The notes below the pieces were generated by a model, which saw only the letters and a list, made by a program, of their open reading frames with translations, searched no databases and was not told the DNA's origin. Positions 1,693-37,901 of a stretch of 37,923 nt of DNA are shown in pieces. The DNA is from Deltaproteobacteria bacterium (lineage in GTDB: Bacteria; Bdellovibrionota; UBA2394). The stretch spans positions 1 through 37,923 of the forward strand of contig JAFLCD010000008.1 of NCBI GenBank assembly GCA_017302715.1. The letters run 5' to 3'. The translations under genes were made by a program, and so were the position numbers. Position 1 is the stretch's first letter; every line of letters begins with the position of its first letter.

Positions 1693-3257
1693 AAGAGTGG
1701 GTTCAACTTCAACGAGATCTTTATAAAGACATCAAAACTGAAGTCGATCTTCTTTTAAAAAAACAACCGGCCGCACTTTTAAAATATGAAAAAGAGTTTT
1801 TGACCGATCAGAAAGATTTTGCAGCTACTTCGGCTCGAGAATTTGTTTCTGAAATTAATAAAGCAGAAGTAACTTTTTTTGGAGATTTTCACACCCTTCG
1901 CCAAAGCCAAAGGCTTTTGCTTCGACTTTTACGCGATCGAAAAATTAAAAGGCCTAAGATTTTAGCTTTTGAAGTTTTAAGCTCCTCGCATGAAAAGTTA
2001 GTTTATCAATGGCTCGAAAAAACCTCTCTTAAATCTAAACTGCAGGCAGCGCAGTCGCTGAAATATGCACTGAATCTTGAAAAAAAATTCGGAAGTTCTT
2101 TTGAAACTTTTCAAGAAATATTTATTGAGTGCTTCAAAAATAAAATTCAAATTAAAGGGCTTTTTAATCCCTCTTCATCCCTGATCGAACGAGATAAAGC
2201 TGCCGTCCGCCGAATTCAAACTTACAAAGAAAGAGTCTGGGTGCTTTTTGGAGAATATCATTGCGCTCGATCTCATTTACCTCAGCAACTTTTAAAAGTC
2301 CTTCCTCACCTGTCGATGGCCGTCGTACAACAAAATGACGATCGAACAGCTCTTCGCTATTTGGACAAACTCAGCGCCGAAAAAACTCTGATTCTAAAAT
2401 CAAAATCGAAAAATAAAATCCCTCTTTTTTGCCTCCTCCACACACCGCTTTGGGTAAAGTGGCAGAGTTATATGGAGAGACATCTTCTCGCTGCTGAGAC
2501 ATCTGGCAACGGAGAAGCGGAGATCGATCTTCGCGAACAAATTATTTGGTCTCTTCAAACGCTTTCACAATTTCTTCATGATCCTCGGTATCCATTTAGA
2601 AAATCGGAGAGCGATTTACTCGACTTCGAAGTTTTTGGACCCGAAGATCCGCAATTCGTCCGCTCGCTGTCAAAGCTTCCAGCAAGTGAAAAGCAGCAAG
2701 TGATGAAGCAACTTCGATCTTCGAATGCCGCTATTCTCCGTCAGCGAAGGCGAATTTATTTAACAGAGCAAACGATTAATTCCTGCTCTCAAGCTGCAGG
2801 TCTTTATCTCTTTCAAATTCAGTCCAATCTTCAACCTCAGTCTGAGGAGTTTTTTAAATCGGTTCTGGTTGAAGCGATGGCGTTTTTAATGTCAAAACTT
2901 CTCAATCACTCTCGACAAGCGGCTCACTGGAAAGATTTTGAAGTCTTAGCCAAAAGAAAAAATTCTCAGCAAAAAGAATCCAGAGCTATTTTGCATTGTC
3001 GAAGTTTTTCTGTACATGGCCTCTCTTCGGAGTGGCGAAAAAAATTAAAACCTTATCAATCGCATTGCATCGTGGCCTTGGGGCGCATGCTTGGAGATTC
3101 AGTTTTTGAAGCTTTTCTCTCAGGAGAATTCTCTCGTTCCAGACTTATTCGCCTTGCATCATCCTCTGTAAAATCGGAGCGCGATGCTTTTGAAAGAATT
3201 GTAGAACTTCAGTCAATCGCGCGAGACTTTGATCCTAAGAGATCTCGGCTCTGGTAA
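1689..3257 (+). CDS. ChaN/Tiki-superfamily-like protein, long form
   Basis: A 522-residue protein whose N-terminal part (about 50-210) matches the pattern of the ChaN/TIKI/EreA-like fold: FFGDFHTLRQSQ (GDFH at 65-68), LAFEVL (Glu95), then VLFGEYHCARSHLP (GEYH 188-191, His197). In that superfamily these His/Glu residues bind haem or metal or form a hydrolase site. Unlike ChaN lipoproteins there is no signal peptide or lipobox, so it should be cytoplasmic. The remaining 300 residues have no motif I recognise. It overlaps the PilZ gene by 4 bases. Its catalytic activity, if any, is unknown. Confidence 0.65.
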   Translation: MKEWVQLQRDLYKDIKTEVDLLLKKQPAALLKYEKEFLTDQKDFAATSAREFVSEINKAEVTFFGDFHTLRQSQRLLLRLLRDRKIKRPKILAFEVLSSSHEKLVYQWLEKTSLKSKLQAAQSLKYALNLEKKFGSSFETFQEIFIECFKNKIQIKGLFNPSSSLIERDKAAVRRIQTYKERVWVLFGEYHCARSHLPQQLLKVLPHLSMAVVQQNDDRTALRYLDKLSAEKTLILKSKSKNKIPLFCLLHTPLWVKWQSYMERHLLAAETSGNGEAEIDLREQIIWSLQTLSQFLHDPRYPFRKSESDLLDFEVFGPEDPQFVRSLSKLPASEKQQVMKQLRSSNAAILRQRRRIYLTEQTINSCSQAAGLYLFQIQSNLQPQSEEFFKSVLVEAMAFLMSKLLNHSRQAAHWKDFEVLAKRKNSQQKESRAILHCRSFSVHGLSSEWRKKLKPYQSHCIVALGRMLGDSVFEAFLSGEFSRSRLIRLASSSVKSERDAFERIVELQSIARDFDPKRSRLW

Positions 3258-3270
3258 ATATTGATCGAAA

Positions 3271-4338
3271 TTATTGAGCAGTCGTTGGAGTAAGCTGAGT
3301 TTCAACCATTTTATCCCCACGCTTATAAGTGAGCGCAATGGAGCGATGAAGATCATCGGCGCTTAATTCTTGCCAATCCGATATAATCTTTAAATCTTTT
3401 CCATCCCATTTGATAAGAAGATCTTTTACTCTCAGACCCGCTTGGTAAGCAGGACTGCCCACATCGATTTGTTGAACCGAAAATCCGGCCACGCCTGGTT
3501 TCAAACGAAGACCTGTATAAGGTCGATTTACTTTTCCATGATCCAAAATAGAGTGAACAGTCTCTTCAAGTCTCTTCATTGAAATAGCAGCACCCCAAAG
3601 CGGAACAGGATGTGAAAGTAAAAATCCAACGGCTCTCCATTTTTCATCCATCAGAATTCCGCCCATTGAAACTTCTGAAGGTGGAGGTAAAAACAAAATT
3701 AATTCTTCATCCATTCCCGTATGAAGTTGAGTTCTAAAAGGTTCGACCGTTACGTTGAGGCGATCGATCTGACCTGGATACGCCGCCGAAATGACCGAAA
3801 GCTTTTCGCCTAAGGTGACGGCATCCGATCTCATCAACCAACGATTATCTCGACTAAAATGAAGTTGAGCAGGAAGCGAAACTTGAAGAGCAATGATGTC
3901 GAGTGCTCGATCAATGCCTTTGACCGTCGCATCCAACCAGGGCGAGTTTCCGTTTGAACATTCTAAATCCTGAACATTTTCAAACCAAGGACGAGAGGAA
4001 ATTAAAACTCCCGTATCTGACCAAAGCAGAGCAGTCCCGATCAAAGTTTTTGAAGTGCTCAAATCGAGAGAGCTTAAACCTTTGTCGTGAAAATAATCTA
4101 AAAAGCCTTCGATCATTCTTCCCGGAAATTTTTGATTTTTATCAGCGTTGTAATTGGGAATCACTCCGCGACAAGTCCAAATCCATTTTCTTGTTTCAGA
4201 AAGTCTGGTCGACTCATCTGAATTTTTAACAATCCCCGACTGACGCTCCCATTCAGGAATTCTTTCGCAACCTGATAAGACTAAAATAAAGAGAGCAAAA
4301 AAAAGACCAGAAATAGAAAATACGTTTTTTAAAACCAT
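3271..4338 (-). CDS. PDZ lipoprotein with degenerate HtrA-like protease domain
   Basis: The N-terminus is a lipoprotein signal (lipobox LSGC, Cys24). Residues about 95-260 look like a trypsin/HtrA fold: ALLWSDTGVLISSRP matches the HtrA strand that normally ends in the catalytic His, but Arg116 sits there. RALDIIALQV (Asp147) resembles the Asp strand, and EVSMGG (Ser224) resembles the GNSGG serine loop. Residues 276-348 form a PDZ domain (VQQIDVGSPAYQAGLRVKD). I infer a membrane-anchored, probably catalytically dead HtrA relative that binds protein C-termini. It overlaps the beta-barrel gene upstream by 10 bases, so a quality-control or scaffolding role for envelope proteins is plausible. Confidence 0.7.
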   Translation of the reverse strand: MVLKNVFSISGLFFALFILVLSGCERIPEWERQSGIVKNSDESTRLSETRKWIWTCRGVIPNYNADKNQKFPGRMIEGFLDYFHDKGLSSLDLSTSKTLIGTALLWSDTGVLISSRPWFENVQDLECSNGNSPWLDATVKGIDRALDIIALQVSLPAQLHFSRDNRWLMRSDAVTLGEKLSVISAAYPGQIDRLNVTVEPFRTQLHTGMDEELILFLPPPSEVSMGGILMDEKWRAVGFLLSHPVPLWGAAISMKRLEETVHSILDHGKVNRPYTGLRLKPGVAGFSVQQIDVGSPAYQAGLRVKDLLIKWDGKDLKIISDWQELSADDLHRSIALTYKRGDKMVETQLTPTTAQ

Positions 4339-4844
4339 AAAATCAAATGACCCATCAAAGAAAATCCGTGATTAGCTTCAAATTTTCCAGAGTTTGTACT
4401 TCCAAAATAAGCGAGTGCATAATAGCGCATCGAAGCTCCTGTCGAAAAATGCGAATTAATGGCAACGTCTGTTCCCAAACTAAAATCTGGCTTCGCGCCG
4501 TAAGCTAAACCTTTATCGTTCGTGTGTACTATGACTGGGCCTATAGCGCCCTCAACAAACGGGCGAACAATCCCCTGTGAGAAAAAATATTTTTGCCCAA
4601 GAACGAGAGAGTAAGTTTCTACTTTTGTAGCTGAATAATGAAATCGAATTTCATAAGGATCAACGCGATAAAAACCTTCGGCTGAAATTCCGGCCCCATA
4701 ACTATCATCCTGAGCGAGAGGAAAATCTCCACCCACTGATCCCCCCATCGCTAAGGGCGCCGCCCCCACTTGAAACAACGGCATACAGGTAGACATAATA
4801 TAAATTCCAAATCCGACAACCAAAGAAGCTATAAAATTTTTCAT
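4329..4844 (-). CDS. outer-membrane beta-barrel protein, small
   Basis: A 171-residue exported protein with an N-terminal hydrophobic signal (MKNFIASLVVGFGIYIMSTC). It is followed by alternating strands rich in Gly, Tyr and Phe, such as YEIRFHYSATKVETYSLVLG and RPFVEGAIGPVIV. It ends in a terminal aromatic (HLILWF), the usual recognition signal for beta-barrel assembly. The length suits an eight-stranded OmpW/OmpX-like barrel. The start overlaps the proS stop (ATGA), and its 3' end overlaps the PDZ lipoprotein gene. The ligand is unknown. Confidence 0.68.
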   Translation of the reverse strand: MKNFIASLVVGFGIYIMSTCMPLFQVGAAPLAMGGSVGGDFPLAQDDSYGAGISAEGFYRVDPYEIRFHYSATKVETYSLVLGQKYFFSQGIVRPFVEGAIGPVIVHTNDKGLAYGAKPDFSLGTDVAINSHFSTGASMRYYALAYFGSTNSGKFEANHGFSLMGHLILWF

Positions 4845-32421: not shown

Positions 32422-33354
32422 GTGAATTTCGACGAAAAAGACGGCGACGATACAGACTATACTACGCAGATGCGTCAGCTTGAGGCGGATACCGATCCTA
32501 CGAGAACTTTAAAATCTCAGGCGGTTTTGTTAGTCATGTCGGGACCCACCACCGGACAAAGTATTTTCCTCGAAACAAAAGATGTTTGGATTTTAGGCCG
32601 CTCAACCGATAGCGATATCACTCTTCATGACGCCAGCGTCTCTCGAAATCATTGCAAAATTAAATATCAAGCCCCACATACGTGGATTGCCGAAGATCTT
32701 AAATCTTCGAATGGAACTTGGCATAATGGCGATCGCATTCAAAAAGTAGAGCTGAAAAGTGGAGATAAACTTCAACTTGGCACGAATATTATTTTGAAAT
32801 TTGTTTTACAAGACGAGCTGGAGCTCGCTTTTCAAAAAGAACTTTATGAGTCTGCAACAAAAGACGCACTGACCGGACTTTTTTCGAAGCGATATTTTTT
32901 AGAGCAACTCGATGTGGAGTTTAATTTTCATAAGCGAATTAAAAAACCGATTTCGCTTGTTCTTTGTGACTTGGATCATTTCAAAAAAGTGAACGACACT
33001 TACGGCCATATGGCTGGGGATCTTGTACTCAAAGAAACCGGAAGACTGCTTTTAAATGTCACTCGAAAGGGAGATCTCGTTGGAAGATACGGTGGAGAAG
33101 AGATTATCGTTTTACTGCGAGACACTCCTCTTCAGGGAGCGAAAATTTTTGCGGATAAACTCAGACAGTTGATTCAAAAACATCCTTATATTTACGAAGG
33201 AAAGAAAATTCAGGTCACCGCCTCTTTTGGCGTGGCAACTTTTAGCGACGAAAATTATCAAAGCACGACTGATTTGATAAAAGTAGCTGACGAATTTCTT
33301 TATAAGGCCAAACAATCCGGACGCAATCGCGTTGCATGTTTAGGCGATTCATAA
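32422..33354 (+). CDS. FHA-GGDEF diguanylate cyclase (DgcB-like architecture)
   Basis: A 310-residue protein. Residues 35-128 are an FHA phosphothreonine-binding domain with WILGRSTDSD (Arg60), SVSRNHCKI (Ser74, His77) and SSNGTWHNG. Residues 145-308 are a GGDEF domain with DALTGL, DLDHFKKVND and active site GGEEI (224-228); GGEEF is the usual form. An inhibitory RxxD site is intact (RKGD, 215-218). Bdellovibrio DgcB, needed for prey invasion, has this same FHA-GGDEF layout. The N-terminal tail is acidic and carries TDPTRT (24-29), which could be a phosphothreonine ligand. The start is GTG 32422 with a weak ribosome site. Confidence 0.9.
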   Translation: MNFDEKDGDDTDYTTQMRQLEADTDPTRTLKSQAVLLVMSGPTTGQSIFLETKDVWILGRSTDSDITLHDASVSRNHCKIKYQAPHTWIAEDLKSSNGTWHNGDRIQKVELKSGDKLQLGTNIILKFVLQDELELAFQKELYESATKDALTGLFSKRYFLEQLDVEFNFHKRIKKPISLVLCDLDHFKKVNDTYGHMAGDLVLKETGRLLLNVTRKGDLVGRYGGEEIIVLLRDTPLQGAKIFADKLRQLIQKHPYIYEGKKIQVTASFGVATFSDENYQSTTDLIKVADEFLYKAKQSGRNRVACLGDS

Positions 33355-34234: not shown

Positions 34235-34708
34235 ATGAGTAATTTGAGCAAAATTGTAGGTGTATTTTTGGTCCTTGGGTTAAGCCTTTTTCTATCTGCA
34301 AAAGTAGAAGCCAAAGAGACTTTAATCGCCTGTGAAAACTTAAGTTTATCCGGAGTTTTTGAGCAATGCGAAGAAGTGGTCATTCTTGAAAAACTTGGAA
34401 ACAGGATCCGCGCTTATTCGAAGCCTAAACAAATCGTCATCAGCATTTCAAAAGACATTATCTTTGTCGCAAAAAATTTAGAAAAAGGTGAAAAAGTTGA
34501 ATCTCACCAACGAGTCACGATCGCCGCTGATAGACTTTGGAATACGTCCAAAGCTGGATTTCAGTCTCTCTGCGAAGTGAAGGGTGAAAATAAAAGTGGC
34601 TTACTCAACGTCAATTGCGGTCGTTATCAAAATGAAACCATCGATAAAGCAGCTGTCTTCACTTTGCACCCTTACTCAACGTACAGCGCTGCTAAAGAAA
34701 AATCTTAA
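34235..34708 (+). CDS. small exported protein, function unknown, sigma-54 driven
   Basis: A 157-residue protein with a signal peptide (MSNLSKIVGVFLVLGLSLFL, likely cut after VEA at 26). The mature part is strand-rich with Cys33 and Cys44 near its start and two further cysteines (LCEVKG, NCGRY), which suggests two disulfides. I recognise no family. The start is either ATG 34235 or TTG 34244; the sigma-54 promoter leaves almost no leader for the former. Its stop overlaps the stop of the opposite-strand HD-GYP-like gene (TTAA, 34705-34708). Confidence 0.65.
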   Translation: MSNLSKIVGVFLVLGLSLFLSAKVEAKETLIACENLSLSGVFEQCEEVVILEKLGNRIRAYSKPKQIVISISKDIIFVAKNLEKGEKVESHQRVTIAADRLWNTSKAGFQSLCEVKGENKSGLLNVNCGRYQNETIDKAAVFTLHPYSTYSAAKEKS

Positions 34709-36144
34709 TCAAAGAAAAATCCGGGGATAGAAATTCCCTCGCGCTTTGGATCCAAAGTCTTAACGATTTTAAAGTCAGGATGATGAGCCAAGTCTAAAAG
34801 CTCAGCTCTTTCAGCTTCTGTAGCCGGAAGAACTTTAATCATTGGCTCACCGAGCTTGTCTCCACTCGGTCTAAACACAATGGCCTTTTTTCCGTTCGAA
34901 AGTAAACAGAGACTGCCCACGGGATAAACCCCCATCAGCCGAACAAAAACATAATAAATAATTGGATCAAGATCACCCGAATTATCTCTCGCCTGCGGAC
35001 CAACAGCTTTATTGCCTAGAATTTTTACAGCTTCGGATGGCGTATAGGCATCTCGAAAAGGTCGATCGCTAATGAGCGCGACGTATTGAGAAACGAGTCT
35101 GACTAATCGACTCTCGAGAGTAAGTGAAACTGATTTTACATCCGAGCCTCGAGATTGTTCAAAGATCGCAAGCAATCTTTCTAAGACTGGGCGACTCGAG
35201 CCCTGAAGACGAATGAGTTTGTAAACTCCCGATGTCTGAGCATCAAGAACTCTTTTGTATTCTACGGGTGTGAGTTTTTCATTTTTTAAAACAGCAGCGG
35301 CTTCGTTACCAAGTAAGCCCACATTATAAAGCAATCCCACTAATCCCAAATTCACCTGCTCACGGACAGAAAAATTAAGTTCTTTGGCAAGAACGATACA
35401 GAGCATACAAGTTGCGATGGCTTGAGAGACAGCAGCCGACTCAGAAGTTTCTTTAGCTGGATCTTCGCGAATCAAACTTAGTGAAATCAATTGATAAGGA
35501 GCAACTCGTGCAATCTCCACCATTTCCATCAATTCACGTCGAAGATTTTTTTGAGAATTTAATTTTTGACTGGTGATTCCCTCGAAATAATTTTCAGTAT
35601 GTTTTCGCAATAAAAAATAATGCTGAAGTGCATACTGAGGACTCAGCAAAAGTTGCTTTGTTTTTAAACGTAAATTTGCCTTACTAGGATCCATCAAAAC
35701 CAGATCAATGCCTGCGATCTTTGCTTGAAGCTCTTTAGGTCGTTGATGAACCGAATTATGAAGAGCCCATTTTGCAAAAAATTCTCCGATCACTTCTCGC
35801 TTGAGATCTTTATGAAAAGTGAGGCTCTCAATCATGGCGATTTCTACAGCATCGCCCACCACTTTCATCGCTTCGACTACAGAGAAATGATTCGTAATCT
35901 TATGGCCCATCAAAATAAAGAGATGATCTTGATAGCGCATCTCTACCTTGCCATCTTCTTTGGCATAATGACGAAGCTCATTTAAAGCTTTCTCAAAATT
36001 CTGAAAGGGTCTTTGAAGTGCAACGTTATGAATGTCGTGAACGCTTAAACTTTTAAGCAGTGCAAAAATAGAATTGAGAAAATCTCGTCGAGTTTGCTCA
36101 AATTCAGGAGATGCGATCTCTTGAGTGTTAGGACTTACGCTCAC
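34705..36144 (-). CDS. degenerate HD-GYP protein (pseudo-phosphodiesterase)
   Basis: A 479-residue protein. Residues about 240-375 follow the HD-GYP layout, but the metal residues are lost. LGLVGLLYNVGLLG (267-280) matches LGxLLHDIGKxG with Tyr273-Asn274 where His-Asp should be, and IFEQSRGSDV (327-336) stands in for the HHExxDGxGYP loop. The later helix YVALISDRPFRDAYTPSEAV (354-373) is typical HD-GYP, as is the tail VYPVGSLCLLSNGKKAIVF. Residues 35-128 form a strand/helix domain resembling one in the upstream partner. I infer a catalytically inactive sensor or scaffold. Its start overlaps the HEAT-like gene (ATGA). Confidence 0.78.
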   Translation of the reverse strand: MSVSPNTQEIASPEFEQTRRDFLNSIFALLKSLSVHDIHNVALQRPFQNFEKALNELRHYAKEDGKVEMRYQDHLFILMGHKITNHFSVVEAMKVVGDAVEIAMIESLTFHKDLKREVIGEFFAKWALHNSVHQRPKELQAKIAGIDLVLMDPSKANLRLKTKQLLLSPQYALQHYFLLRKHTENYFEGITSQKLNSQKNLRRELMEMVEIARVAPYQLISLSLIREDPAKETSESAAVSQAIATCMLCIVLAKELNFSVREQVNLGLVGLLYNVGLLGNEAAAVLKNEKLTPVEYKRVLDAQTSGVYKLIRLQGSSRPVLERLLAIFEQSRGSDVKSVSLTLESRLVRLVSQYVALISDRPFRDAYTPSEAVKILGNKAVGPQARDNSGDLDPIIYYVFVRLMGVYPVGSLCLLSNGKKAIVFRPSGDKLGEPMIKVLPATEAERAELLDLAHHPDFKIVKTLDPKREGISIPGFFFD

Positions 36145-37901
36145 GAAATATCTCCTCCCGAATTACCTTTGAAAATTTCTCTGGGAATTTCAGAGGTTGT
36201 TTTTTTAACAAACGAAATTTTTTGAATCATGTCTTTAAGCTCAGGAACCAAAGTCTCTAGCGGAGTTTTTTCTAGAAGCTTCGTGATAAATTCTGGCATG
36301 GTTTTGGCCATGGCTTTTGTTAAGACCATTCGTCTTTCGGTCTCGCCTTTTTTCTTGAAAAGTCCCGAACCAGGTTGCATCCAAAGCGCTTCTATCCAAG
36401 GAAATGCAACGTCTCCACCGATACGAATAATACTGATGTAGCCCACTTCTCTTTCGTCTGGCGCACTCTCTTTAAATTTATTCGATTCAAGATGGTTTTT
36501 TAGCATAATGAGTGAGTTCTTATTCTTGGAAGAAGAAATCAATTCATAGGCTTGAATGCGATCAGCAGGATTTTCTGAATTAAAATATTTTTCAAATATT
36601 TTAAGAGAATCAGCGGTGCCGATCGCGGCCAATTGTTTCAAAACCTTTTGTCGAACATTCGTGGTCGCGGTCTGTAATAAGCTTTCGAGAAACTTCTGAA
36701 AATGCTGGGTGGGTTTAGAAGCAAGAATATTAATCAGTGCTTCCCAACAGTCATTGGCAGGATTTTTTTGTACTTCTTGATTAAGCCACGTCATTTGTCC
36801 TGGAAGATTTTTCAAAACGCTTTCGGCAAAATTTTTCTGTAACCAAGGATGTGGGCCTAAAAGTAAAATCGAAAGTCTGCACGAACTCGCGGGAGCTTGA
36901 GACAAAATCTTAAGCAGTGCCTTATGATGATCCGAATGCGTAAAGAGTTTTGCAAAAACTTCTAATTGATCGGGAGAGAAAATAGAATCTAGAATTTTTT
37001 GATATTCCCCCGCTTGATCTATTTTTTCTTTTTGAAGTTGATAAAGCCTAACTAAGAGGGCCTCACCGAGATCAAAATACGAATCTTCTAAAATATTGAG
37101 CGCAACTTTAATGACTAAATCGCGACCGACTTGGCGTTGTTCCGGATCTCGATCGTTAAGTAAAAAGTGAAAGCCCATGACCAAAAGTCTTTCAACTGTT
37201 TCTCGCTCTTTCACGGGTGAGTCTTTAAGAGTCGTGATTGTTTCAATAACCTTCGAGACTTCTTCATTAGAACGTGTGAACTGAACAGGGTTCAGTCGAA
37301 ATTCATCCAAAACTTTCATATCATCGGGACGTAAACGTCTTTGAGCCGAAGTTTTTGGAATTGCTTTTGCAGAGGCAATTTTAGCCATGAAAGATTTCAT
37401 CTCTTCTTTGAGCTCGGGATCTTCTCTTTCAAGTTCAACTAAGATATCTGCACCCACTACTTCGAAATGATCGAAACGCTTTTCCATGAAAAGACAGTAG
37501 AGATCTTGGTCCATGAGTTCGGCTTTTGTGAAATCGGTGGCGAGAATTTGAATGACTTCTAAGAGTTCTTCTTTGGTAAACCCTTTTTTGAAAACGAGCA
37601 TTCGAATGCCATCCTGATAGAGCGCGAAGCTCAATGACGTTTTCTTTTCTTTGTTTGTGTAAACAACTTTTCGATCGAAGAAGATTTCAAAAGGCTTCAC
37701 CGTCATTTCAAGTTGATCAGCTTCTAAGAGTGCGCGTTCAAGAGCGCCTATCGTGTTTTCGTAAATATTTTGAATGACATCTTGGCCTGAAGCATAATTG
37801 TAGAGCTTGGCGGAGCGACTTGATTTTTCAAGTGCGTTGATAAAAATTTCAACGGCGTTTTTCTGACCTAATCCTGGCGATGACGCTGTTGTTTGTTCCA
37901 C
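36141..37901 (-). CDS. HEAT-like helical repeat protein
   Basis: A large cytoplasmic protein with no signal peptide. Its N-terminal 125 residues contain a strand/helix domain with FEIFFDRKVVY, DGIRMLVFKKG and TKEELLEVIQIL. From about 195 onward it is entirely helical, with HEAT-like pairs such as VRQKVLKQLAAIGTADSLKI and DRIQAYELISSSKNKNSLIM. GTG 37901 is preferred because GGGGGAG lies 5 bases upstream; ATG 37922 is in frame but its ribosome site is outside the window. It is coupled to the pseudo-HD-GYP gene. A protein-protein scaffold is likely. Confidence 0.68.
   Translation of the reverse strand: MEQTTASSPGLGQKNAVEIFINALEKSSRSAKLYNYASGQDVIQNIYENTIGALERALLEADQLEMTVKPFEIFFDRKVVYTNKEKKTSLSFALYQDGIRMLVFKKGFTKEELLEVIQILATDFTKAELMDQDLYCLFMEKRFDHFEVVGADILVELEREDPELKEEMKSFMAKIASAKAIPKTSAQRRLRPDDMKVLDEFRLNPVQFTRSNEEVSKVIETITTLKDSPVKERETVERLLVMGFHFLLNDRDPEQRQVGRDLVIKVALNILEDSYFDLGEALLVRLYQLQKEKIDQAGEYQKILDSIFSPDQLEVFAKLFTHSDHHKALLKILSQAPASSCRLSILLLGPHPWLQKNFAESVLKNLPGQMTWLNQEVQKNPANDCWEALINILASKPTQHFQKFLESLLQTATTNVRQKVLKQLAAIGTADSLKIFEKYFNSENPADRIQAYELISSSKNKNSLIMLKNHLESNKFKESAPDEREVGYISIIRIGGDVAFPWIEALWMQPGSGLFKKKGETERRMVLTKAMAKTMPEFITKLLEKTPLETLVPELKDMIQKISFVKKTTSEIPREIFKGNSGGDIS

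Follow-up and report, generated by a model that had tools for sequence, protein, structure and literature searches.

Two genes that overlap by 4 bp and code for proteins of different architecture raise the question of whether the two products work as a single unit and, if so, which part of them couples the two. The window analyzed here, i.e. the whole stretch of 37,923 nucleotides, corresponds to contig G000:C18 of a 2.39-Mb assembly, and the region 34705-37901 of its minus strand is occupied by two genes, one for a HEAT-like protein and one for a pseudo-HD-GYP protein (hereafter pair A). A preliminary description of this DNA had noted similar segments near the N-terminus of both proteins and suggested a two-protein signalling complex. 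We have analyzed the gene boundaries, the N-terminal segments, the degenerate HD-GYP domain and the distribution and neighbourhood of the pair among related genomes.

Organization of the gene pair

The features of the locus are the following:

36141..37901, minus strand: HEAT-like gene, 586 aa counted from GTG 37901
37428..37871, minus strand: N-terminal domain shared by both proteins, HEAT-side copy, residues about 18-165 (profile match, model pLDDT 79.9)
36144..37427, minus strand: helical body of the HEAT-like protein, residues 166-593, with a HEAT_2-like stretch at 36489-36692
36152..36159, minus strand: Shine-Dalgarno-like GGGAGGAG, preceding the start of the pseudo-HD-GYP gene
36141..36144, minus strand: GTGA, 4-bp stop/start overlap of the HEAT-like and pseudo-HD-GYP genes
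34705..36144, minus strand: pseudo-HD-GYP gene, GTG start, 479 aa, HD_5 match
35689..36108, minus strand: shared N-terminal domain, HD-side copy, residues about 13-152 (profile match, model pLDDT 86.5)
35005..35427, minus strand: degenerate HD-GYP domain, residues about 240-380, with HD replaced by YN and the GYP motif and ligand histidines lost
34765..34971, minus strand: C-terminal segment with a GVYPVGSL motif, also found in the intact HD-GYP protein of the same genome

The HEAT-like reading frame ends with a stop at 36141 and is open from ATG 37922, which corresponds to 593 aa, and it is this longer form that the residue numbering follows. GTG 37901 is nevertheless the better start, because GGGGGAG lies ~6 nt 5' of it and the orthologue in genome G001 starts at the equivalent valine; the boundary at 37901 given in the preliminary description is thus the preferable one. 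An overlap of the NTGA type is found in 11 of the 12 pair junctions listed.

In the body of the HEAT-like protein, Pfam HEAT_2 matches residues 411-478 with an E-value of 1.2e-5 and 26.0 bits, slightly below the cut-off of 27.7, and profile matches to designed helical-repeat proteins were also obtained. The protein resembles HEAT-repeat proteins in having this putative helical-repeat stretch, but differs from them in that most of its body is unrecognised and its N-terminal domain belongs to no family.

Profile evidence for a common N-terminal domain

The HEAT-like and pseudo-HD-GYP proteins have in common an N-terminal domain of ~140 residues (N-domain). Using hhalign on N-domains trimmed to about 145 residues, with 10 sequences per side taken from four genomes, we obtained a co-linear match over 132 columns with a score of 41.6, a probability of 88% and a single-comparison E-value of 3e-6. 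Exchanging query and target gives a score of 34.4, and a second, separate profile comparison results in a probability of 80% and an E-value of 1.4e-5 over 128 columns. As for the background, column shuffles (n=100) reach a maximum of 19.8 and reversed profiles 13.6, while the highest score among the real decoys, i.e. 87 windows of 24 unrelated orthologue groups, is 22.8, each of these matches being short and local; windows of the partner proteins outside the N-domain score at background level (≤14.9). Four MAFFT modes gave N-domain scores of 31.5–41.7, and the best decoy is beaten in 93% of 60 subsamples, each with 7 of the 10 sequences, the matches being weaker when untrimmed N-terminal alignments are used. 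The alignment of the two N-terminal segments is significant with respect to the decoys and shuffles, and the stretches that the preliminary description had quoted as similar indeed occupy equivalent positions within a domain whose alignment covers its full length.

Pairwise BLAST between the HEAT-like and the pseudo-HD-GYP proteins returned chance-level fragments only, with nothing meaningful in the N-domain, and the likeness is thus real yet visible by profiles only. Taken as a comparison of sequence profiles, the match between the two sides is moderate, and the two N-domains are very probably homologous. Chance or convergent likeness between non-homologous α/β segments of similar length, in what would be merely a conserved operon, is the explanation to be weighed against homology. 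It agrees with the identity of about 14% along the alignment, with the profiles of small subfamilies, whose matches between the HD and HEAT sides are often too weak, and with the single-side HMM searches, in which the N-domain of one side did not find the other in either direction. However, whole-domain scores of 31–42, compared with maxima of 22.8 for decoys and 19.8 for shuffles, argue against it, as does the order of structural elements, which matches in independent models (see below), and we consider this explanation very unlikely.

Predicted fold and distribution of the N-terminal domain

AlphaFold2 models of the N-domains were obtained with a mean pLDDT of 86.5 for the HD side and 79.9 for the HEAT side, and these were compared by secondary structure alone. 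On this basis the predicted folds have the same order of elements, helix-helix-strand-strand-helix-strand-helix-strand, in line with the similar shape proposed in the preliminary description; the HEAT-side model has in addition a third strand that follows the hairpin, as well as a short helix ahead of the last strand. Along the hhalign path the class agreement is 96% at the 57 positions structured in both models, and the overall three-state agreement amounts to 0.59, versus 0.36±0.09 (maximum 0.57) for rotations.

The N-domain has not been listed before: neither Pfam nor NCBIfam has a model that includes it on either side, and a Foldseek search of the PDB with both models gave no match at E≤0.001. 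N-domain profiles run against 144 genomes revealed no convincing member beyond the pairs, and no match was found in the phages, plasmids and viral contigs searched. The HD-side profile gave three weak matches outside the pairs (E 0.0015–0.0036), which are short or stop-interrupted. For the HEAT side the one borderline match outside the family, in genome G044 (E 0.005), was rejected as it corresponds to a NAD-synthetase-like protein. We presume that segments resembling the N-domain are present in other delta-proteobacteria, in HEAT-repeat as well as HD-GYP proteins, in which case the domain would be less novel. In respect to its role, dimerisation fits as well as 'input'.

Degeneration of the HD-GYP domain

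Pfam HD_5 recognises residues 245-378 of the pseudo-HD-GYP protein with an E-value of 3.4e-7 and 30.6 bits, against a cut-off of 27.2. In the pair A HD proteins (n=4), alignment noise aside, none of the 12 HD-GYP signature positions examined is kept: the HD of the metal ligands is YN in all four, other residues take the place of the ligand histidines and aspartate, and the GYP motif, present in an intact paralogue, is absent. The HD proteins of the paralogous pairs B and C (see below) have stray signature residues only, and the metal site appears to be lost in every one of the HD domains of pairs A, B and C. One could envisage that the HD protein has kept enzymatic activity, with a changed active site, and that the HEAT-like protein is its regulator, considering that the HD-fold superfamily is chemically diverse, as stated in the accessible part of PMC8177086, and that the C-terminal segment is conserved in intact and degenerate forms. 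The complete loss of the signature in the four pair A proteins, metal ligands included, together with the stray residues left in B and C, makes this extremely improbable.

The intact-looking HD-GYP paralogue of the same genome (G000:C1, L042:7374-8231) has 285 aa, an HD_5 match with an E-value of 3e-22 and all 12 signature residues. Its gene lies directly behind that of a ~410-aa HEAT-like partner (both genes within L042:7374-9448; also L112, L113 and L114), and the two overlap by 4 bp in three of four genomes, the start being uncertain in the fourth. The C-terminus of this partner scores 31–40 against the HEAT family (shuffles ≤23.4, other decoys about 20), so that its putative link to the family has one moderate profile match behind it; the N-domain was sought in this partner and not found, the scores being at decoy level. 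The window protein and the intact paralogue are alike in the HD_5 region, the helix pattern and the C-terminal GVYPVGSL segment, and both genes overlap an upstream HEAT-like gene by 4 bp; unlike the paralogue, the window protein is devoid of metal ligands and GYP and has the N-domain. From these sequence features we infer that the association of an HD-GYP with a HEAT-like protein came first, and that pairs A, B and C derive from it, having lost catalysis and gained the N-domain. The upstream HEAT-like partner of the intact HD-GYP protein may represent the ancestral state.

A catalytically inactive HD-GYP protein, Bd1817, has been described in the predatory relative Bdellovibrio bacteriovorus, with a regulatory role given as unknown in the accessible part of PMC4159591. 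The window protein, predicted to be an inactive HD-GYP protein, resembles Bd1817 in this respect but has lost the whole metal site, whereas Bd1817 keeps a binuclear iron site, the GYP tyrosine being its sole loss (same part of PMC4159591); that part makes no mention of a HEAT partner for Bd1817. A literature search for HD-GYP combined with HEAT repeats returned nothing relevant.

Conservation and duplication of the pair

The pair belongs to a small family of uncultured Bdellovibrio-like bacteria, and pair A is adjacent in four of the five family genomes, namely G000 (the window), G001, G003 and G004. The relatives with a name come from metagenomes, their assemblies carrying the labels Bacteriovoracaceae UBA2394, Deltaproteobacteria CG11 45_16 and Bradymonadales DLM2.Bin98. 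The orthologues in G001, G003 and G004 have identities of 43–56% for the HD protein and 37–63% for the HEAT-like protein, the G001 copy of the latter being read as two pieces. No pair was found in the fifth genome, G002, which is 76% complete. A paralogous pair B is present at G000:C14, G003:C71, G004:C84 and, split over two contigs, G001:C214/C83, and a third one, pair C, at G001:C195 and G004:C31. Duplication has thus affected both genes together and resulted in three paralogous pairs, and adjacency is kept both in four genomes and through these duplications. In G004:C31 the HEAT-like gene of pair C (L087:8367-10127) has an in-frame TAG that results in two open frames in the assembly, corresponding to either a pseudogene or a sequencing error.

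Matches to the HEAT profile among 291 genomes of the phylum are restricted to this family, and so are full-length matches to the HD profile among 369 genomes, those found elsewhere covering the ordinary HD domain only. In comparisons of pair A with pair B, the HD-HD and HEAT-HEAT matches of the N-domains reach a probability of about 97%, above that of HD-HEAT, which indicates that the N-domain split is older than the pair duplications. The distances of the HD and HEAT-like subunits correlate with r=0.98, a value mostly set by the A/B/C split and one that a pair moving as a unit would be expected to give.

These observations bear on the main rival explanation, in which the N-domain serves each protein separately as an input or ligand-sensing module, the two proteins being co-expressed branches of one response that form no mutual complex. 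A stand-alone sensor used twice would account for the N-terminal position in both proteins, which is the usual one for a sensor domain, and for downstream parts that are wholly different. It is at odds with the joint movement and duplication of the two genes, three times over and with retention of the overlap. It also disagrees with the searches of 144–369 genomes of the phylum, in which neither of the proteins nor the N-domain was found on its own, and it is in our view rather unlikely. The interpretation given in the preliminary description is supported in part: a common domain and a conserved pair are present, and co-duplication, overlapping genes and co-divergence are consistent with the two-protein signalling complex. 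The shared N-domain and the joint duplication suggest that the two proteins work as one such complex, and a physical association between them is the outcome that we favour.

Neighbouring signalling genes

Pair A is convergent to the gene of an FHA-GGDEF cyclase (window 32422-33354), which is kept beside it in the relatives. The cyclase has a Thr-containing N-terminal tail, DYTTQM, with counterparts DQTTTIA in G004 and DQTTSIA in G003. Bdellovibrio DgcB is activated by binding of its phosphorylated tail to its own FHA domain, and the kinase is not known, according to the accessible part of PMC6733907. The window cyclase is like DgcB as described there in having an FHA followed by a GGDEF domain and a D-x-x-T-T tail; in contrast, that part of PMC6733907 mentions no HEAT/pseudo-HD-GYP pair.

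Pair B is divergent from the gene of a Ser/Thr kinase with a REC domain, in two orthologues of which MshEN scores above the Pfam cut-off; a FIST protein gene follows the pair, and a second MshEN kinase is encoded nearby. In G000:C14 the two kinases (L034:6066-8639 and 2806-4791) consist, respectively, of REC with a weak HD_5-like piece, where the orthologues have MshEN, and of MshEN-TPR-kinase. The presence of a kinase with a c-di-GMP-binding-type domain beside a pseudo-HD-GYP protein is an unusual combination. Pair C is convergent to a zinc-ribbon/adenylate-cyclase/AAA/TPR gene in both genomes that contain it (L087:3973-6927 and L041:3968-6874).

Upstream of 37922 (L033:9946-12498; L035, L036 and L037), two consecutive ArsA/ParA-like ATPase genes are divergent from pair A, and so is an unlisted gene with a membrane-like N-terminus; in G001, G003 and G004 this block is near ftsA-like and ftsZ-like genes.

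The proximity of cyclase and kinase genes is weak functional evidence, because whole blocks of the neighbourhood are in synteny among relatives, and it is doubtful that the neighbouring enzymes are clients of the pair.

A putative non-catalytic adaptor

The best explanation of these results is a heteromeric adaptor composed of a scaffold and a pseudo-enzyme, to which we assign a probability of about 0.6, the complex, its ligand and its target being what we infer. According to this scaffold/pseudo-enzyme model, the partner subunits would have inherited one common N-domain from a duplication older than the A/B/C split, and the homologous N-domains may pair as a pseudo-symmetric heterodimer, with coupled translation providing presumably equal amounts of the two subunits. 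Without catalytic activity, the pseudo-HD-GYP part would serve in regulation or docking, and the HEAT-like part would act as a scaffold to which a client signalling protein might bind, e.g. the adjoining cyclase or kinase. The surfaces of the complex could then gate or place a signalling enzyme, and the adaptor would act within a network of c-di-GMP and Ser/Thr kinases. A bolder version, which we put forward tentatively and hold to be less probable, is that the undescribed N-domain is a pseudo-symmetric coupling module, and that within one family the adaptor was duplicated and one copy each became attached to diguanylate cyclase, Ser/Thr kinase and adenylate cyclase systems.

Degenerate HD-GYP proteins are encountered frequently, and for most of them no role is known. 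The system described here represents a form of degenerate HD-GYP signalling that is specific to this lineage and includes an unlisted domain, and in which the dead HD-GYP protein has a fixed genetic partner with the same N-domain, and the intact HD-GYP protein also has a HEAT-like partner. This offers a testable idea, namely that a phosphodiesterase-plus-scaffold pair may have been turned into a non-catalytic adaptor and then multiplied.
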